Shown in pieces: positions 7,124 through 35,693 of a stretch of 38,433 nt of DNA. Each line of letters starts with the position of its first letter. The stretch's first letter is position 1. The DNA lies in the NCBI GenBank assembly GCA_020725525.1, contig DYEX01000092.1, forward strand, positions 1 through 38,433, written 5' to 3'. This DNA is from Desulfovirgula sp. GTDB lineage: Bacteria; Bacillota; Desulfotomaculia; Desulfotomaculales; Desulfovirgulaceae. Under the pieces are notes generated by a model. It had not been told where the DNA came from and did not search any database. It saw only the letters and a program-made list of their open reading frames with translations. The translations under genes and the position numbers were made by a program.

Positions 7124-8993
7124 TCAGGCGGTATAAATAGCTGCTTGGGGGCAGCGGGCCAAACAGGCTCCGCATTTTAAACATTTCTGCCGGTCGATAA
7201 AATAGGGCTGACCTTTCTTTTCCCCAATGATGGCTTCAGCCACACATTCCCGGGCACATAAACCGCAGGCTATGCATTTTTCCTCATCTAGTACATAGTC
7301 CAGCAGTGCCCGGCAAACTCCGGCGGGACAGCGTTTATCCCTGATGTGGGCTTCATATTCATCCCGGAAGTATTTCAAAGTAGAAAGCACAGGGTTGGGT
7401 GCAGTCTGACCCAGACCGCATAAAGAGGCATCCATAACCTCCCGGGATAGTTCTTCCAGCTCATCCAGATCGTCCATTTCTCCTTTACCCTCAGTAATCC
7501 GTTCCAGAATTTCCAGCATACGCTTGGTTCCCACTCTACAGGGAGTGCATTGACCGCACGATTCATCCAGGCTAAATTGCAAGTAAAATTTGGCAATATC
7601 TACAATACAATCGGTTTCGTCCAGGACGATCATGCCCCCGGAACCCATCATGGAACCCAATTGTTTTAAGGATTCGTAGTCAATGGGCGTATCCAGGTAA
7701 CGTTCCGGTATACATCCCCCGGAAGGACCGCCGGTTTGCACCGCCTTGAATTGCCTTCCCCCGGGAATACCACCACCGATGTCAAAAATTATCGTGCGCA
7801 AAGTGGTGCCCATGGGGACATCGATTAAGCCCGTATTCATGATCTTCCCCGCCAGGGAAAAGACCTTGGTTCCCCGGCTGTTTTCCGTACCGAGGGAGGC
7901 AAACCAGGCGGGCCCTTCGCGAATGATCACCGGCACATTGGCGTAGGTTTCCACGTTATTCAGCAGGGTGGGTTTACCCCACAGACCGCACTGGGCGGGG
8001 TAGGGGGGGCGGGGGTGGGGTTCGCCTCGCTGACCAACGGCCGAACGCAAAAGGGCGGTCTCCTCGCCGCAGACAAAGGCTCCGGCACCCAGGCGCAGGT
8101 CGATATCAAAGCTTAAAATTGGTGTTTAAGATGTGCCGGCCCAGTAAGCCATATTCCCGGGCCTGGGCAATGGCACGCTCCAGCCGGTCCACAGCAATGG
8201 GATACTCTGCGCGTACGTAAATATAACCTTCCCGGGCTCCAATAGCATAGCCAGCAATGGCCATAGCTTCCAGCACACTTTGAGGGTCTCCCTCGAGAAT
8301 GCTTCGGTCCATAAATGCCCCGGGATCTCCCTCATCCGCATTACATACTACATATTTTACCGGTCCCTCGGCGGCTGCGGCTAGTTCCCATTTTCTGCCG
8401 GTAGGGAAGCCAGCTCCACTCCGCCCCCGTAAACCTGACTGCTTGATGGCTTCCACCACCTGGGCTGGCTTCCAGTTGAGCAAGACATCGGCCAGGGCAA
8501 AATAGCCGTCGCAGGCTATGTACTCGGTAATATCCTCGGGATTAATCAAACCGCAATTGCGCAGGGCTACCCGGTGCTGGGCACGGAAAAACTGGATATC
8601 TGAAAGACGTTTTTTTCTTTCCCCGGAAACCGGCTCCATATAGAGGAGGCGTTCCACTACCTGACCTTCCAGCAGATGTTTTTCTACTATTTCGGAAATA
8701 TCCTCTTTTTTAACCAAGCAATAAAGGGTTTGTCTGGGGTAAATTACCACCAGAGGGCCCATTTTGCAAAAACCAAAACATCCCGTCTTGATTACCCGGG
8801 CCCTGGCCTTCTTTGACTGAACCTGTTTGGCCAGCTCCTCCCTGACCTGATGGCTGGCCGAGGATGTGCACCCCGTACCGGTACACACCAGCACCTGCCA
8901 CCCAACGACAGCCCCGGGTTTTTCCCTGCGGGCGTTAATGTCCGGGAGCCGTTTTTTCTGGATATCGATCAGGTCGTTCAGCCGGTTGATCAC
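7124..8993 (-). CDS. NuoF/HndC-like NADH-binding iron-sulfur flavoprotein, +1 frameshift
   Basis: NADH- and FMN-binding subunit of the NuoF/HndC/HydB family. Order: a thioredoxin-like [2Fe-2S] domain (CTGTGC...GCFGFC), an NAD/FMN domain ([14 protein letters not shown], then [14 protein letters not shown]), the N3-type cluster ([12 protein letters not shown]), and a C-terminal ferredoxin domain with two CxxCxxC sets. The frame breaks at 8106-8111, where CTT is followed by TGA. A +1 shift there restores [16 protein letters not shown] with no gained or lost residue compared with family members. This may be a sequencing error, a mutation or a CUU-UGA programmed shift. GTG 8993 is preferred because AAAGGTG sits 8 bases upstream; it overlaps the end of the nuoE-like gene. 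No hydrogenase or formate dehydrogenase catalytic subunit follows. Confidence 0.85.
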
Positions 8994-9489
8994 CGGCAAT
9001 CACCTTTCTGCGCCGGTACGTCCGCAGCAGCCTGGCCACATCCTGGCGTCGAAATTTACCGTATACTTCATCCTCAACCGTTAGCACGGGGGCCAACCCA
9101 CAGGCACCCAGACAGCGGGTACTCTTTACGGTAAACAAGCCGTCAGCAGAGGTATCTCCCTCCTGTAAACCCAGTTGGCGTCTGGATTCTTCGAGAATAC
9201 CCTGGGCACCCTGAACATAACAGGCTGTTCCCAGACAGACATTGATGCCGTATTTTCCCCGGGGTTCGGTATGAAAAAGCGCGTAAAAAGTAACCACCCC
9301 GTTTACCTCACTCACGGGTATGTCCAGTTTTCCGGCAATATAGGTTTGCACTTCCTCCGGCAGATAGCCAAAAATGTCCTGTGCCTCTTTAAGAATGCGG
9401 ATCAACTGCCCTTCCTGCTGGCCGTAGCGTTCAATTACCTCGTCCAGCTGCCGGTACTTTTCGTCCAAATCCTTTTCCCCGCCGGCCAC
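8935..9489 (-). CDS. NuoE/HndA-like [2Fe-2S] subunit
   Basis: A 184-residue thioredoxin-like ferredoxin subunit (complex I 24-kDa family). The four cluster cysteines lie in CLGTAC and, about 35 residues later, in CLGAC. The N-terminal helical domain (LIRILKEAQDIFGYLPEEV) is typical. It partners with the NuoF-like subunit in NAD(P)H-linked hydrogenases and formate dehydrogenases and in complex I. GTG 9489 has AGGAGG 8 bases upstream; GTG 9498 lies too close to that site. The C-terminal tail extends ~20 residues past the usual end and overlaps the next gene. First gene of a two-gene operon divergent from the membrane protein at 9615. Confidence 0.9.
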   Translation of the reverse strand: MAGGEKDLDEKYRQLDEVIERYGQQEGQLIRILKEAQDIFGYLPEEVQTYIAGKLDIPVSEVNGVVTFYALFHTEPRGKYGINVCLGTACYVQGAQGILEESRRQLGLQEGDTSADGLFTVKSTRCLGACGLAPVLTVEDEVYGKFRRQDVARLLRTYRRRKVIAGDQPAERPDRYPEKTAPGH

Positions 9490-11949: not shown

Positions 11950-12015
11950 TGGCGGGAGTGTGTGAGAATCGAACTCACCCGGGACGGGATTGCCACCCCA
12001 CAGCTGGTTTTGAAG
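11950..12015 (-). repeat. Partial duplicate of tRNA-Sec (3' part), likely attachment site
   Basis: Sixty-six bases match the 3' part of the intact tRNA-Sec gene (13715-13780) with one mismatch (A for G at the GCC(A/G)CCCC position). The copy includes the encoded CCA end, T arm, variable arm and anticodon, then diverges abruptly. Direct repeats of a tRNA 3' end on the 3' side of an intact tRNA gene are the usual mark of site-specific integration. No integrase is visible between them. Confidence 0.8.
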
Positions 12016-12016
12016 T

Positions 12017-12556
12017 TCAGCCGCATATGTTCGTTGGCACCCGCCAGCATCTGCAAGCATTGAAAAATAAGACTTTCTCCCTTCCAGCACCCGCTTCAAA
12101 ATCGCCAACGTCTAACTCGATGTTGGATTTCTTGTTGTTAAGGAAAGTATACTTTTTGGGGGCTCTTATGGGGGTACCCAATGAGCCCATATTATGGTAA
12201 TATTTTTGGTAGTTTTTTAAACACCTGTTCATCAAGCTATTCTGGACACGGCTGTCTTTCCAGTGGTAAACAGGGCGCAGGTCCAGACTGGATTTCATTT
12301 CCCGGAAGGCCCGCTCTACACGTCAGAGGTCTTTATAGGCCAGGGCCACTTCTTCGGTACTGAGTTGGGAGTTGGTGCGCAGGACGTACTTGCCGTCATA
12401 CCAGGCTTCTTCTTTCAGGGCTTCCTGGTCTATACCGACCACGGTGTCTCTGTTGAGCAATAGATACCGGCGGTAACCACGGTTGCCCACCAGCGACTTG
12501 ATTCCGCCGTTTTTAAGCTGTTCTTCCAGCTTCCGGCACATTTGCAAGCCGCCCAA
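12017..12556 (-). pseudogene. IS1634-like DDE transposase remnant
   Basis: One minus-strand frame gives the C-terminal part of an IS4/IS1634-type transposase: NRGYRRYLLL...YDGKYVLRTN, then YKDL, a TGA stop at 12323-12325, then RVERAFREMKSSLDLRPVYHWKDSRV. The TGA replaces the tryptophan expected in the YxxLWxVE motif, and the frame after the motif no longer resembles the family. The N-terminal half, with the first two catalytic aspartates, is missing. The gene is dead. The family name is assigned from motif memory and is moderately secure. Confidence 0.75.
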
Positions 12557-12612: not shown

Positions 12613-13011
12613 TTAGGGGTCTATTTGCACGGGGTCAATTTCAATAGCACAAATACGGTCTATGGGAATTATGATTTTCCTCATGATCTGTTTATCAACG
12701 AGCTTGCCGCCGCTGAATACCTTCATGAAAAGGCAATCGCCATGGGCCGGAAGCAGGACGGCAAAATTCTTGATAAAGAACAATTTGGACCCGTTTATGA
12801 CTTTTTTGCAACAATCGCCGCACTCGAACTCAATGCCAATTTTTTTGTCTACTTTTTTGTCCCCGTCTTTTTTGTCCTCGTCTTTTTTGTCCCCGTCGAG
12901 TTGCAACTCGTTAATGGCGAACTCCAGTTCTTCCAATACCGGGTCCTTTTTTTCAGGTAAACCCTCTTTAATCTTGTCAAAAATTGTATTTGCGTTAACC
13001 TCTTGAGACAT
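12613..13011 (-). CDS. Hypothetical protein with Lys/Asp-rich repeat linker
   Basis: A 132-residue protein of unknown function. It has an N-terminal acidic helix, then a linker of repeated DKK(D/E/V) units encoded by a 15-base tandem repeat at about 12843-12898, then a compact C-terminal part containing CGDCCKK and several beta-like stretches (LFFIKNFAVLLP, RKIIIPIDRICAIEI). ATG 13011 has a good AAGGAG site 8 bases upstream. Its A+T content is clearly higher than that of the chromosome-like genes around it, which together with its place between the tRNA-Sec repeats suggests acquisition by transfer. The CxxCC cluster could bind metal, which is only an inference. Confidence 0.55.
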   Translation of the reverse strand: MSQEVNANTIFDKIKEGLPEKKDPVLEELEFAINELQLDGDKKDEDKKDGDKKVDKKIGIEFECGDCCKKVINGSKLFFIKNFAVLLPAHGDCLFMKVFSGGKLVDKQIMRKIIIPIDRICAIEIDPVQIDP

Positions 13012-13125
13012 GTGGATCACTCCTTTTTAATCTTTGATAATATAATATGGGTTTATATGGAAAAGGTTCTATTTTAAGCTAAACAATTAAGCTAGAATTT
13101 TATTTATGAAGGGTGCTAGTTGTAG

Positions 13126-13419
13126 AACTATGATGTTGGTGCCCCCAACTGTTGCGACACCGGACGCTGCCTGAAGGATCTGGCCGGCCGGGAAGATTAC
13201 AAGCCCTGCGTCCACGCCGGGCAAAACGCCATCTGCCTGTGTGCCAAGCGGGGGCCGGCCGTGGCCAGCGGCACCCTGTACGTGAACGCCGGCCCGTGCC
13301 TGACGTGCGCAAAGCTGATTGTCTCCTGCGCCTTATCCCGGGTGGTGCGCCGGGACGGGCATACGGACGAGGGGATCGAGTTCCTAAAACGGCATGGGGT
13401 GAGGGTAGATGTGTGGTAG
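13126..13419 (+). pseudogene. dCMP/cytidine deaminase-family fragment
   Basis: About 95 codons of a ComEB/dCMP-deaminase-like zinc enzyme. The frame has CVHAGQNAICLCAKRG (the HAE motif is altered to HAG) and GPCLTCAKLIVSCALSRVV (the PCxxC zinc motif), and ends RVDVW. A stop at 13123-13125 closes the frame upstream, so the N-terminal third is lost. Substitution of the catalytic glutamate by glycine implies that it could not deaminate even if expressed. It is G+C-rich, unlike the hypothetical gene beside it, so the island is a mosaic. No start or ribosome site fits. Confidence 0.75.
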
Positions 13420-13714: not shown

Positions 13715-13812
13715 TGGCGGGAGTGTGTGAGAATCGAACTCACCCGGGACGGGATTGCCGCCCCACAGCTGGTTTTGAAGACCAGGAGGGCCACCAGGCC
13801 CCATCCACTCCC
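13715..13812 (-). tRNA. selC: tRNA-Sec (UCA anticodon)
   Basis: A 98-base tRNA with encoded CCA. The long acceptor stem (GGGAGTG with CACTCCC), the extra-long variable arm (GGGCGGCAATCCCGTCCC region) and the anticodon loop CTTCAAA with anticodon TCA identify selenocysteine tRNA, which decodes UGA when SelA, SelB and a SECIS hairpin are present. Its 3' part is duplicated at 11950-12015, marking it as an integration target. A candidate selenoprotein gene lies at 31293-31607. No selA, selB or selD is in the window. Confidence 0.95.
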
Positions 13813-31203: not shown

Positions 31204-31292
31204 TTATACTCCCCATACTTCCATGTTGCCTTCTCCCATAAGCGCTTGGGACTTTTATTTACCATCCCTGTAAAAATCGGGAGGGTTATTGT

Positions 31293-31607
31293 ATGCCGGT
31301 TAGAGTGGAGGTTCTTGGAAATGTTCCGGCTAATGAATGGGGGCGTCCCGGATGAGCACCAGGAGGATGCGCGTTCGGTGAACGCGATCTCTCCTTTGGG
31401 TACCGGTTACTGGAGGGATTGCTGGAAAGGCTCTATGGCCACAGCGTGGAGCTGACCTATCACTATGCTGGTGATGTAGCCCCTGGAGAATTACCGGTAG
31501 TGCTGATTGATGGGATGATAGTAGTCAGGGGCGGGATTTCGCCCGTCCCAGTGGTGAAATGCCTGGATGGAATGGGTGTACCTCGAAAACCTGCTGACAG
31601 GAATTAG
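31293..31607 (+). CDS. Candidate selenoprotein, thioredoxin-fold-like, Sec at codon 21
   Basis: A 104-residue protein if TGA at 31353-31355 is read as selenocysteine. Before it the frame gives MPVRVEVLGNVPANEWGRPG, a first beta strand and loop. After it comes APGGCAFGER, a long helix (FGYRLLEGLLERLYG), a strand (SVELTYHYA), LPVVLIDGMIVVRGG with the cis-proline-like LP before a strand, and helix VVKCLDGMGV. This beta-alpha-beta-beta-alpha order fits the thioredoxin fold, with a UxxxxC pair (U21, C26). ATG 31293 has a CGGGAGGG site 8 bases upstream. The frame on both sides of the TGA is coherent and uninterrupted to TAG 31607. A SECIS-like hairpin follows the TGA and tRNA-Sec is in the same window. 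The family is not identified; a redox role is inferred. Confidence 0.78.
31359..31400 (+). promoter_or_regulatory. Bacterial SECIS-like hairpin
   Basis: CGCGTTC (31370-31376) pairs perfectly with GAACGCG (31380-31386) around a GGT loop. A lower stem AGGAG (31361-31365) pairs with CTCCT (31391-31395). The loop starts 22 bases after the TGA, within the distance known for SelB-binding SECIS elements, and has the expected guanines in the apical loop. It lies wholly inside the coding sequence, as bacterial SECIS elements do. Confidence 0.75.
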
Positions 31608-32080
31608 TCGTTTTTTTTTTTTTTGTATAATGTCCTTCTTCTGGCAATATTGCTTCAGAATCGTAACACTGTCGAGATCCTAAATACTGTCGAGGTTCAA
31701 ACCTGGCAGATTTGTTGTCCCTGATCGGGGTATTCTGCAAGCAGGGATCAAGACCTCGCTCCCCCCTTTCTAATAGCTATTGTTAAATTATAAAAGTTAG
31801 AAAGTACGGATAATTTTAATTTTTTTATTTTTAAGCAGGGATTGGGGCTATAATGCTGAATTACTGTAATTATTAAGAATAGTTATACTATGCCTGCGGT
31901 ATTCTCATAGCACAAGCACCTCAATATCTAGCAAGGAAATTGCAAGGTAGCGCCAGAAGAAAGCCAGGGAAGAAAAGGTGTAAATCCGGTAAAATGATGC
32001 CGGTGCAAAAAGGTAAGAGGTAAAGGAAAGGGTCCAGGGAGTAGTAAAGGTGGGATTAACAAGAAATCGTATTAAAGGAG
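31608..32080. other. Gene-free A+T-rich region with repeats
   Basis: A run of 14 T (31611-31624) follows the selenoprotein gene and may end its transcript; only a small CCTG/CAGG stem precedes it. ACTGTCGAG occurs at 31668-31676 and again in ATACTGTCGAGG at 31684-31695; the latter 12-mer also occurs at 13579-13590. TATAAT at 31849-31854 could be a -10 for the hdr operon but no -35 is clear. No gene is seen. Confidence 0.45.
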
Positions 32081-32091
32081 TCAGATGCGAG

Positions 32092-32490
32092 ATGGTGGAT
32101 CTATCAGGCAAAACACGCCGGGAATTAGTTGAGCGCATCAAAGAAATAAGCGGGCAAAATCCCAATCTTTGCATGCAATGCGGGACCTGCAGTGCAGGTT
32201 GTACGGGCAGAGAATTCATGGAATTTCTACCCCGACAGGTCATGCGCATGATTCAACTGGGAAACGCCAAAGCATTGAATTGTAAATCCATCTGGGTATG
32301 CAGCACCTGTTTAATTTGTACCGCCCGCTGCCCCCGGGGTATAGATATTGCCCGGTTAATGGAAGCCTTACGGGTAATCAACCTGCGTCAGGGCAGGGAA
32401 GTACTAATTGCGGAAAAAATTCCGGTGGAGTTGCTGACACAAGTTCCCCAGATGGCCTTGACCAGCGGCTTTCGCAAGCTAAGCGCTTAA
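32092..32490 (+). CDS. HdrC-like iron-sulfur protein
   Basis: A 132-residue protein with two [4Fe-4S] motifs, CMQCGTCSAGC near residue 24 and CSTCLICTARCPRG near residue 71, like subunit C of heterodisulfide reductase. It should pass electrons to the HdrB-like protein encoded next. ATG 32092 follows AAAGGAG at a distance of ~11 bases. First gene of a tight four-gene operon with HdrB and fumarate-reductase-like subunits; no HdrA flavoprotein is present, so the electron partner is probably the downstream flavoprotein. Confidence 0.88.
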   Translation: MVDLSGKTRRELVERIKEISGQNPNLCMQCGTCSAGCTGREFMEFLPRQVMRMIQLGNAKALNCKSIWVCSTCLICTARCPRGIDIARLMEALRVINLRQGREVLIAEKIPVELLTQVPQMALTSGFRKLSA

Positions 32491-32504
32491 AAAGGGGGAT
32501 AGGG

Positions 32505-33368
32505 ATGAGGGTTCCATACTTTCCAGGATGTACTCTCCATAGTAAAGCAAAGGGTCTGGATTATTCCACCCGGGCCTCCCTGGCTGCTTTAGGTGTGGAA
32601 TTAACCGAACTGTCCCACTGGACCTGCTGCGGTACAGTTTTTCCCCTGGCCCAGGACAATTACATCGGCATGGTCGCGGCAGCACGCATTTTAGCCAATG
32701 CAGCCAAAGAAGAAGGTGGCAGGCTGGTTACGGTTTGCTCCTTCTGCTATAACGTTTTAAAACGGGTGAATTATGTAATACAAAACAACTCAGAGGCACG
32801 GCAAAAACTAAATGATTATTTGGAAGAAAACTATACCGGAGAAATTCAGCCTGTCCACCCCCTGGAAATTTGTAAGGAGCACGTGGGATTTAATGTAATC
32901 AGGAACAAGGCGGCAAGGAGCCTGAAGGGTCTTAAGGTGGCCTGTTATTATGGTTGCATGCTTGTCCGGCCAGCTGCGGAGATGAATTTCGACGATCCGG
33001 AAAATCCCACCATCATGGAAGGACTGGTTACTGCCCTGGGTGCGGAGGTGGTTGAATACCCCAATAAGATAACCTGTTGTGGTTCCTATCAGGTACTGCA
33101 CGATAACGCTCTGGTGATGCAAAGGGTGGAGGATATACTCAACTCTGCCATTACTAAGGGTGCGGAAGCAATCATCACCAGTTGTCCCCTTTGCCAGTTT
33201 AACCTGGACTGGTTGCAGGAAAAAATACTGCAGAAAAACGCCGGCTTTCGCCAAATTCCCGTGTTATATTTTACCCAACTCTTGGGTTTAGCTCTGGAAC
33301 TTCCCCAGGAAAGCCTTGGACTGGATCAACACTATGTAGATCCCAGGCCCTTATTGGTGGGAGCATAG
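32505..33368 (+). CDS. HdrB-like CCG-domain protein
   Basis: A 287-residue protein with two cysteine-rich CCG domains: FPGCTLHSKAKG...WTCCGTVFP...CSFCYNVLK and CYYGCMLVRP...TCCGSYQV...CPLCQFNLD. In heterodisulfide reductase these hold the non-cubane clusters that split disulfides; related domains occur in TfrB of thiol:fumarate reductase and in other oxidoreductases. Whether a thiol, quinone or other substrate is used here is not known. ATG 32505 has AAGGGGG upstream and is 14 bases after hdrC. Confidence 0.88.
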   Translation: MRVPYFPGCTLHSKAKGLDYSTRASLAALGVELTELSHWTCCGTVFPLAQDNYIGMVAAARILANAAKEEGGRLVTVCSFCYNVLKRVNYVIQNNSEARQKLNDYLEENYTGEIQPVHPLEICKEHVGFNVIRNKAARSLKGLKVACYYGCMLVRPAAEMNFDDPENPTIMEGLVTALGAEVVEYPNKITCCGSYQVLHDNALVMQRVEDILNSAITKGAEAIITSCPLCQFNLDWLQEKILQKNAGFRQIPVLYFTQLLGLALELPQESLGLDQHYVDPRPLLVGA

Positions 33369-33394
33369 ATCTGCCTTGTAAGGAGGAAAGAGTT

Positions 33395-34078
33395 ATGGCT
33401 GAAGAAAGGGAAATGGTAAATATATATATTATGGGTAAACACTATAAGGTTCCCTATGGCCTGACGATTATGAAAGCCATGGAATATGCCGGTTACCGTT
33501 TTATCCGGGGCTGCGGCTGCCGGGGGGGTTTTTGCGGTGCCTGTGGTACCGTTTACCGCAAACCGGGCGATTTTCGGCTGAAAGTAGGCCTGGCCTGTCA
33601 AACCGTGGTAGAAGACGGGATGTATCTCACCCAGATCCCCTTTTACCCGGCCAATAAAGCCACTTATAACCTGGAGGAACTCACTCCCACCCTGGGCACA
33701 TTGCTGCGGTATTATCCTGAATTGACCCGCTGCCTTGGCTGCAATCAGTGCACCAGGATCTGTCCTCAGGAACTATCGGTAATGGACTATATGGCCGCGG
33801 CTCAGCGAGGAGATATCGAAAAGGTGGCCCATATGTCCTTTGACTGCATTATGTGCGGTCTCTGTGCTTCCCGCTGTCCGGCAGAAACCGTCCAATATAA
33901 CGTTGCCATTCTGGCCCGCCGGCTCTACGGTCGCCATATTGCCCCGCGGGCGCAACACCTGGCCAAACGGGTAGAAGAGGTCAAAGCCGGGAAGTTCGAT
34001 GAGGAACTGGACAGGCTGATGAAAATGGACAAAGAGGAATTGCAAAAGTTATACAATGCCCGGGATATTGAACCCTAA
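33395..34078 (+). CDS. Fumarate reductase/succinate dehydrogenase-like iron-sulfur subunit
   Basis: A 227-residue electron-transfer protein. The N-terminal part binds a plant-type [2Fe-2S] cluster (GCGCRGGFCGACGTVY, with a later CQT). The C-terminal part has two [4Fe-4S] motifs, CLGCNQCTRICPQ and CIMCGLCASRCPAE. The N-terminal cysteine pattern is unlike classical SdhB and resembles TfrB-type or other non-quinone iron-sulfur subunits. ATG 33395 has AAGGAGG 9 bases upstream. It presumably links the HdrBC pair to the flavoprotein encoded next. Confidence 0.85.
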   Translation: MAEEREMVNIYIMGKHYKVPYGLTIMKAMEYAGYRFIRGCGCRGGFCGACGTVYRKPGDFRLKVGLACQTVVEDGMYLTQIPFYPANKATYNLEELTPTLGTLLRYYPELTRCLGCNQCTRICPQELSVMDYMAAAQRGDIEKVAHMSFDCIMCGLCASRCPAETVQYNVAILARRLYGRHIAPRAQHLAKRVEEVKAGKFDEELDRLMKMDKEELQKLYNARDIEP

Positions 34079-34094
34079 GGAAGGTGGAATAAAT

Positions 34095-35693
34095 ATGTAT
34101 ACTCAGGAAATGCTGGAAGCAATTAAAATCGTCGAACAAACCAGAGAACGACGCTTAAAGGAAACTTTTCCCCGTTTAAAACCGGAAGAAAAAGAAAATC
34201 TCTTACGCTCCTACCATCCCGACTATAAGCCTGATGCCACCAGGCTGGTGAAAGTAGGCCCGAATGCCGGGGATAAGTTTACCCATGAACATGCCGATCT
34301 GCTGGAAAGCCGGAGTATGCTCGATCCAGACACTTTTTCCCTGGAAAACATAGATTTCGACGTAGATGTGCTGGTTATTGGTGGTGGCGGAGCGGGTACA
34401 TCGGCTGCTCTTTTGGCCCAGGAAGCCGGAGCCAGCGTACTGATTGCCACCAAGCTGCGCCACGGCGATGCCAACACCATGATGGCTGAAGGGGGCATTC
34501 AGGCTGCAGATAAAGAAAACGACTCCCCGGCCATTCACTACCTGGACGTCATGGGGGGCGGAGGTTTTTATAATATTCCGGAACTGGTGGCCGCTTTAGT
34601 GAAAGACGCTCCCCTGTGCATCCAGTGGCTGGAAAGCCTGGGTTGCATGTTCAGCAAATTCCCCGACGGTACCATGCATACCATTCATGGCGGAGGCACC
34701 TCCCGCAAGCGTATGCATTTTGCCCACGACTACTCGGGGGCGGAAATTATGCGCACCTTGCGGGATGAAGCCCGCAACCGGGGTATTCCCGTCATAGAGT
34801 TTTCCCCTGCCGTGGAACTAATTATGGATGAATATGGGCAATGTGCCGGGGCAGTACTCTATAATTTAGAAACCGAACAGTACCTGGTGGTCAGGGCCAA
34901 AACCGTGATTATTGCCACCGGTGGTTCTGGTCGCCTGCATATTGGCGGTTTCCCCACCACAAACCATTACGGTGCTACGGCCGACGGCATTGTCATGGCC
35001 TACCGGGCCGGCGCAAGGTTGATTTACCTTGATGCCACTCAGTTTCACCCTACCGGCGTGGCTTTCCCGGAACAAATTGTAGGGCAGCTGGTAACTGAAA
35101 AAGTACGAGGTCTCGGTGCTCAACTGGTTAATGTCGAAGGTGAACAATTTATCTACCCGTTAGAAACCAGGGATGCGGTTTCTTCAGCGATCATCCGGGA
35201 ATGTAAAGAGCGCCAGAAAGGAATCACCACGCCCAGTGGCATGCAGGGAGTATGGCTTGACTCACCCATGATCGATATCATCCACGGTAAAGGCACGGTG
35301 GAAAGGGAGTTGCCGGCCATGTTCCGCCAGTACAAGCGCTTTAATATTAATATGGCCGAGCAACCCATCCTGGTTTACCCGACTCTGCACTATCAAAATG
35401 GCGGCATTTTGATCAACGACCGGGCAGAAACAAGCATTCCCAATCTTTACGTTGCCGGGGAAGCATCAGGGGGAGTACACGGGCGGAACCGGCTTATGGG
35501 CAACTCCCTGCTGGATATTATCGTCTTCGGACGCCGGGCCGGGATGAATGCCGCTGAAAGAGCAAAGAGTGTAAAGTTGGGCAGGCTTACCCTTGATCAC
35601 GTTAAACGCTATCATGAAGAACTAAAGAAAGAGGGCCTTGGCCAGAAAGTTGCCCCGATTTTACTGCCGGATTACCGGGGGAAAATTAGTTAA
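34095..35693 (+). CDS. Fumarate reductase/succinate dehydrogenase-like flavoprotein
   Basis: A 532-residue flavoprotein of the FrdA/SdhA/TfrA family. The FAD-binding start VLVIGGGGAGTSAALLAQEAG is at residue ~91 (preceded by an unusual ~85-residue N-terminal extension), and the substrate-domain landmarks are HFAHDY-like RKRMHFAHDYSG, FHPTG in TQFHPTGVAF, and the final GEASGGVHGRNRLMGNSLLD, with the catalytic Arg. No membrane anchor gene follows, so the complex is probably soluble. ATG 34095 has AAGGTGG upstream. Fumarate reduction or succinate oxidation is inferred from the family, not shown. Confidence 0.88.
   Translation: MYTQEMLEAIKIVEQTRERRLKETFPRLKPEEKENLLRSYHPDYKPDATRLVKVGPNAGDKFTHEHADLLESRSMLDPDTFSLENIDFDVDVLVIGGGGAGTSAALLAQEAGASVLIATKLRHGDANTMMAEGGIQAADKENDSPAIHYLDVMGGGGFYNIPELVAALVKDAPLCIQWLESLGCMFSKFPDGTMHTIHGGGTSRKRMHFAHDYSGAEIMRTLRDEARNRGIPVIEFSPAVELIMDEYGQCAGAVLYNLETEQYLVVRAKTVIIATGGSGRLHIGGFPTTNHYGATADGIVMAYRAGARLIYLDATQFHPTGVAFPEQIVGQLVTEKVRGLGAQLVNVEGEQFIYPLETRDAVSSAIIRECKERQKGITTPSGMQGVWLDSPMIDIIHGKGTVERELPAMFRQYKRFNINMAEQPILVYPTLHYQNGGILINDRAETSIPNLYVAGEASGGVHGRNRLMGNSLLDIIVFGRRAGMNAAERAKSVKLGRLTLDHVKRYHEELKKEGLGQKVAPILLPDYRGKIS

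Follow-up and report, generated by a model that had tools for sequence, protein, structure and literature searches.

In enzymes of the thioredoxin fold the active site is found in the loop that links strand 1 to helix 1, and proteins of the YuzD type carry a CxxC motif. The 2026 catalogue of bacterial selenoproteins holds 119 families or subfamilies (Table 1, PMC13188914), and its entry nearest to the protein considered here is the pair Sec.1 and Sec.2 of Brachyspira, which belong to PF13192 ('redox-active disulfide protein 2'; PMC5330540, PMC13188914). As described in the available part of PMC5330540, these are small thioredoxin-like proteins with Sec that were missed or truncated in annotation and that have a bacterial SECIS (bSECIS) element after the TGA; they differ from the present protein in that their Sec lies in an extension at the 5' end of the thioredoxin domain, in a CxU or UxC motif, and in that a Cys-containing third copy is found there. 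The SelW-like entry of the catalogue is given with the motif CxxU (PMC13188914, available part).

The window, i.e. the whole stretch of DNA analysed (38 433 nt; contig DYEX01000092.1 of the Desulfovirgula sp. assembly GCA_020725525.1, handled here as contig C59 of genome G000), contains on its forward strand a putative selenoprotein gene at 31293-31607. The frame begins with an ATG at 31293, ends with a TAG at 31605-31607 and gives 104 residues when the TGA at codon 21 (31353-31355) is read as Sec; homologues carry the same TGA. A sequence-only reading of the window had proposed one gene here, with a good ribosome site and a coherent continuation beyond the in-frame TGA, and both details hold up: the ribosome-binding site GGGAGGG (31279-31285, plus strand) lies 7 nt before the ATG and is kept in the homologous loci L002, L003 and L004, and the TGA stands inside a single 104-residue frame. 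The UxxxxC pair (U21 and C26, the latter encoded at 31368-31370) and the stretch LPVVLIDG, in which Pro68 (31494-31496) occupies a cis-Pro-like position by conservation and by the secondary structure of the models, could likewise be read in the sequence as described. The six-frame list of ORFs of at least 80 aa (standard code) has no sense ORF at 31293-31607, which makes plausible the accompanying remark that usual gene calling would give two short fragments or nothing at this place. No Pfam or NCBIfam family matched the protein at E values up to 10, and a PADLOC scan of it returned nothing.

A protein search of 100 related genomes gave matches in 25 of them (the window's own included), and 22 of the 26 matches listed contained exactly one in-frame TGA. 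With a profile, matches were obtained in 40 of the 113 genomes of the class; among the 32 matches at E ≤1.3e-7, 31 contained exactly one TGA and one contained none. Thirty of these 32 best matches, including the window protein, are of the window's kind, come from one bacterial class and were read in detail as group 1 (the weak matches L023, L024 and L025 were left out). G000 shares its genus with genomes G005 and G002; neither search gave a match in G002 or in G007, of the same family. A scan of genome contigs yielded a sole close relative, from Desulfofundulus thermosubterraneus (72 % identity).

At the column of codon 21, TGA was found in 29 of the 30 group 1 members, Ser in one (L021) and Cys in none. 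The sequence-only reading had named homologues with neither Cys nor Sec at residue 21 as evidence against a selenoprotein, and L021 is the single such case. L021 and the Sec-containing L026 are neighbouring copies in G077:C128; L021 has no Cys or Sec anywhere and a branch longer than those of its neighbours, and looks like an inactive natural paralogue of L026. The 29 Sec members share the motif PGUxPxGC and variants of it. Twenty of them have the U-x4-C arrangement, one has U-x5-C, four have an adjacent Cys (C-U), one has its sole Cys six residues before the U, and three (L018, L020 and L022) have Sec but no Cys at all. With the TGA present in all but one member and the position of the partner Cys varying to this extent, Sec is more constant in group 1 than its partner.

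Other groups in the class and in the phylum carry Sec in a loop that aligns with the group 1 loop, in motifs that include GGUGCGSGxxGCGPAKTM, GWEGURxPG and FGSRxxDxCxxGGUGP, among others, and Cys forms such as CSCGCCG occur among them. The relationship between group 1 (alignment A5) and group 2 (A3, an alignment of seven members) was evident by profile (hhalign 97 %, E 4.6e-11). Two further alignments were used, one representing the superfamily (A2, without L004, L008, L009, L022 and L088), in which Pro68 is at least 90 % conserved, and a narrower one of 21 members (A1, without L008 and L009, which are near copies of L007). The relatives in groups 2 and 3 (GGUGCGSGxxGCG and FGSRxxDxCxxGGUGP, respectively) have Sec in the same loop by alignment and are spread across the phylum; they differ from group 1 in their Cys/Gly-rich loop, in the intermixing of Sec and Cys forms and in falling elsewhere in the tree.

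In an unrooted tree of 75 rows, which are part of the superfamily matches and provide few columns and 14 open forks, group 1 made up one side of a branch (96/82) present in 98 % of 200 bootstrap trees, and Sec and Cys forms intermixed outside it (L145 was dropped, its stretch holding a stop or a second TGA). Cys forms, found in other groups of the superfamily, are absent from all 30 group 1 members. Ten relatives scanned singly reached no Pfam or NCBIfam cut-off, the highest score against DUF1462 being 23.3 bits (gathering score 25), and the best NCBIfam E-values of A1 and A3 members were 0.0045 and 0.046, respectively. On these alignments, group 1 appears to be a clade without Cys forms inside a wider DUF1462-like superfamily. 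Many further small TGA-containing relatives were seen across the phylum (L130, L131, L134, L138, L142, L145, L161 and others), with loops such as CYGU, CxxxxU and UGCG; when scanned, they matched no NCBIfam model above its cut-off, and some of these groups may deserve a selenoprotein family of their own.

AlphaFold models of the window protein built from two alignments had mean pLDDT values of 87.6 and 88.3 and gave the order E3-9, H30-51, E52-58, E69-72, E75-79, H84-94. Both place Sec21 and Cys26 between strand 1 and helix 1, in a loop that is the least certain part of the models (block means 62 and 60), and Pro68 just before strand 3. The predicted models have the layout of the thioredoxin fold (strand-helix-strand followed by strand-strand-helix, Sec after strand 1, Pro before strand 3) and support a fold of the thioredoxin type in which Sec occupies the active loop. 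The thioredoxin-like beta-alpha-beta-beta-alpha domain that had been proposed agrees with them in fold type, the models having one strand more than was written.

Matches to solved structures were weak. The best in both Foldseek searches was 1xg8 (E 7.4e-3 and 6.7e-3; TM about 0.5, rmsd over 7), which we take to be a DUF1462/YuzD protein (SA0798 or SA0789 in the tables), and no match in either search reached E 0.001. The first search placed ArsD-type chains at ranks 2-5 and SelW at rank 6; in the second, ArsD-type chains stood at ranks 2, 4, 5 and 6 and SelW at rank 15, and rank 3 went to an export-gate protein, one of several unrelated proteins of this kind among the top matches there. By VIA, SelW-type chains headed the list (Z 7.5, rmsd 2.3-2.8 over 73-79 aligned residues), tied within Z 1 with thioredoxins, and 1xg8 had Z 7.1 (81 residues, rmsd 3.0); a best Z of 7.5 is middling and may indicate no more than a common arrangement. 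In profile comparison, A2, which represents the superfamily, matched 1xg8 at E 0.0014, and the narrower A1 at only E 0.074.

Of the described families, DUF1462 is the best match both by fold (Foldseek) and by superfamily profile, and the position of Cys26 falls on a Cys of 1xg8. The DUF1462 model (PF07315) was matched by two of the 21 A1 members (best E 3.8e-5) and by three of the seven A3 members (best E 2.7e-5), whereas the window protein, which has Sec and the U-x4-C motif, gave no match to it at E up to 10. PF13192 was matched weakly by five of the 21 A1 members (best E 0.0032) and not by the window protein, whose Sec is placed by the models in the strand 1-helix 1 loop and not in an extension as in Sec.1 and Sec.2. 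SelW-like proteins resemble the window protein in fold and are set apart by their motif, since a Cys at U-3 is absent from all 29 Sec members, in which the partner usually stands at U+5. ArsD ranks high by structure, but the window protein has no Pfam or NCBIfam sequence match to it.

In its available text, the catalogue (PMC13188914) has no entry naming DUF1462 or a U-x4-C motif; this comparison was made by name, domain and motif, not by sequence, and entries listed without a motif are not judgeable by motif. Literature searches found no paper pairing a selenoprotein with DUF1462, and the family was not found in the available parts of PMC5330540, PMC12013277, PMC5029168 and PMC2398784, an absence that is no proof of novelty. 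The suggestion of a new or little-described family agrees with these results and with the lack of Pfam and NCBIfam matches. We could not find the family described, and regard it as a new selenoprotein family that is set apart from the catalogue by name, domain and motif; the family is new, and its pattern, that of the small thioredoxin-like selenoproteins, is known.

The best explanation of the locus, to which we assign a probability of about 0.6, is a selenoprotein acting by selenol-based thiol/disulfide or persulfide exchange. The UGA at codon 21 would be decoded as Sec by SelB and tRNA-Sec under the direction of the hairpin, and the product would adopt a fold of the thioredoxin type, in which the loop from strand 1 to helix 1 holds Sec and Pro68 precedes strand 3. 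The selenolate would then attack a disulfide, a persulfide or an oxidised partner, and in most members Cys26 (U-x4-C) would resolve the mixed selenenylsulfide, a task that would fall to the adjacent Cys (C-U) in some and to an external thiol in those without Cys. A simple dithiol mechanism is hard to square with a partner Cys that changes place or is missing, and the Cys-free members call either for an external thiol or for another role, such as metalloid binding or the carrying of sulfur or selenium.

The main alternative takes up this last point. The selenol might bind or carry a metal, a metalloid or a reduced sulfur or selenium species, as ArsD does with arsenite, which we consider possible and distinctly less probable than exchange. 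Such a role would suit the three members that have Sec and no Cys, and it is in keeping with the Cys/Sec-rich loops of the sister groups (e.g. GUGCGSGxxGCG), with the high position of ArsD-type structures in both Foldseek searches and with weak matches of some other superfamily members to ArsD models. The window protein itself, however, matched no ArsD model, no ars gene was among the named recurring neighbours, and one selenol by itself makes a poor multidentate ligand.

Selenol-based exchange, the reading preferred here, depends on decoding of the UGA as Sec, and a SECIS-like hairpin directly after the TGA had been claimed from the sequence. The predicted bacterial SECIS element (31353-31400, plus strand) has a 7-bp upper stem (31370-31376 paired with 31380-31386) and a GGU apical loop (31377-31379) 21 nt after the TGA. 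The 48 nt from the TGA fold with an MFE of -21.4 kcal/mol (z -3.0; matched by 2 of 200 shuffles), and the hairpin fits the bSECIS model as given in section 5 of PMC13188914, which has a loop of 3-9 nt, a stem of 4-16 bp, G in the first two loop positions, a distance of 16-37 nt from the UGA and an MFE of ≤-7.5. Covariation, which also bears out the claim, was measured in an alignment (A4) of 12 members chosen for one stem register, a choice that favours that stem, from the 37 TGA members of group 1 (29) and group 2 (8); L009, identical to L008 there, was left out. Upper-stem cells were paired in 91.7 % of cases against 26-55 % in slid controls, which keep the relatedness of the members. Two-sided changes occurred in six of the seven upper-stem pairs (6 of 500 shuffles did as well) and the covariation score was reached by none of 500 shuffles, which do not keep relatedness; one of the five measures, further pair types, was not above the shuffles (143 of 500).

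Across all 37 TGA members the hairpin signal was more diffuse. A scan by rule at spacings of 16-37 found a fitting hairpin in 36 of the 37 against 26.9 expected in shuffles, with 17 members beating 95 % of their own shuffles and all 37 at -7.5 kcal/mol or lower; a first scan, at spacings of 16-30 and with no energy bound, gave 36 of 37 against 24.5 expected, with 16 below 0.05. Perfect stems were demanded in both scans, and a rule-fitting hairpin is common in shuffles too. Whole-hairpin folding energy differed from that of controls (mean z -0.61 vs -0.03, p 0.027, 37 members) and is on its own a weaker signal than covariation; the hairpin was not recovered in every one of the 37 folds of 48 nt.

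The machinery for Sec is present in the genome. The tRNA-Sec gene that had been placed in the same window was located at 13715-13812 on the minus strand by ARAGORN and by Rfam RF01852 (74.9 bits). A check of the genome for selA, selB and selD had been proposed, and all three were found in G000: selA (636.7 bits) and selB (375.6 bits) lie side by side on contig C102, and the selD match (405.7 bits) has one in-frame TGA inside it. In a sample of 398 genomes of the phylum, 82 had a superfamily match. selA was present in 42 of the 43 genomes with a TGA inside the match, in 28 of the 39 with a match but no TGA in it and in 186 of the 316 with no superfamily member; a TGA was scored if it lay inside the matched stretch, its exact place being read for fetched loci, so that G432 and G147, with the TGA just before the match, fall in the no-TGA row. 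The lone genome with a TGA-containing match and no selA, G279, has selB, as does G432, in which selA was absent at the threshold used. Within the class, selA presence was uninformative as a test, 107 of the 113 genomes having it. Two class genomes with the TGA form had no selA match: G059 (91 % complete) has selB, and G069 (84 % complete) has no selB over the cut-off.

The case for Sec is built from sequence evidence, which leaves some room for programmed readthrough of the stop or for insertion of another amino acid at the UGA; we regard this as very improbable in view of the covariation in the SECIS stem, the Sec machinery of the genome, the near-constant company of selA with TGA-containing matches (42 of 43) and the occurrence in the sister groups of Cys forms alongside those with Sec. 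By these comparisons, the UGA at codon 21 almost certainly encodes Sec.

Beyond the TGA, Ka/Ks ranged from 0.145 to 0.381 in 12 pairs of members, and the frame after the TGA is under purifying selection. The stretch before the TGA, including its strand, is also conserved among the aligned members, none of which starts after the TGA, a form of homologue that had been named as evidence against the proposal. The low Ka/Ks on the far side and the conservation on the near side together argue that the stretch beyond the TGA is very probably read in this frame and joined to the stretch before it in a single protein. A pseudogene or a sequencing error, with two fragments of a dead gene, could appeal to L021 with its Ser and longer branch, and is the least probable alternative of all given the same single TGA in 29 of the 30 members and Ka/Ks <0.4 beyond it in 12 of 12 pairs. 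The initial proposal of one 104-residue gene with TGA read as Sec is thereby supported at the level of sequence comparison, and 31293-31607 very probably represents a real selenoprotein.

Clustering of the neighbouring ORFs at 34 loci revealed no operon partner common to the families. In the window's genus, an upstream ORF of 122 aa recurred in four loci, and downstream HdrC-, HdrB-, FeS- and fumarate-reductase-like genes in four to five. Seven loci of families f7 and f17 (L077, L079, L080, L082, L093, L094 and L095) had an Hsp20 gene (PF00011) downstream in convergent orientation and, after it, other genes in common; some of these loci also had NUDIX-, MinC- and glycogen-synthase-like genes (named by eye) further on. 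As these two patterns are confined to their own lineages, no function was drawn from context. In the window itself, the HdrC-, HdrB-, ferredoxin- and fumarate-reductase-like genes occupy 32050-35693 on the plus strand and are candidates for an unassigned Hdr-linked fumarate reductase/succinate dehydrogenase type, all scoring below the NCBIfam cut-offs of their best matches.

Elsewhere in the window, a 71-nt direct repeat (11950-12020 and 13715-13785; 96 % identical, 1765 bp apart) duplicates a segment of the tRNA-Sec gene that takes in its 3' end, and the pair looks like the attachment sites of an element integrated at this gene. Inside the repeat interval are an ORF of 135 aa (12613-13020, minus strand), which contains a 15-nt repeat and has no NCBIfam match at 1e-5, and a deaminase-like ORF (13126-13419, plus strand; PF00383, E 4.1e-9). 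The latter covers positions 45-99 of the 102 of the deoxycytidylate deaminase zinc-binding model and, since only this C-terminal half was matched, is perhaps a remnant. A HydB/NuoF-like gene (named by eye; 7124-8999, minus strand) is present as two ORFs in different frames, split near 8050-8106; the first frame meets stops beyond the split, which would reflect either a frameshift or an assembly error.

According to the available text of PMC13188914, nearly all selenoproteins have Cys forms among their homologues, and one of the two main routes to finding selenoproteins relies on Cys forms that pair with Sec (section 6); the filter of a newer tool relies on the same pairing (PMC12013277, available part). 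A group with no Cys form among 30 members is hard to see for such an approach, so that the selenoproteomes of these anaerobes may be undercounted, and in many genomes the gene would be found by a profile in which U is permitted. Comparing natural members that have the partner Cys with those that lack it offers a direct test of why Sec is kept. A bolder proposal, to which we give somewhat less than even odds, is that small DUF1462-like selenoproteins make up a large, uncatalogued superfamily in the phylum and that Sec is obligatory in group 1; if this is true, group 1 would perform chemistry that only a lone selenol can do.
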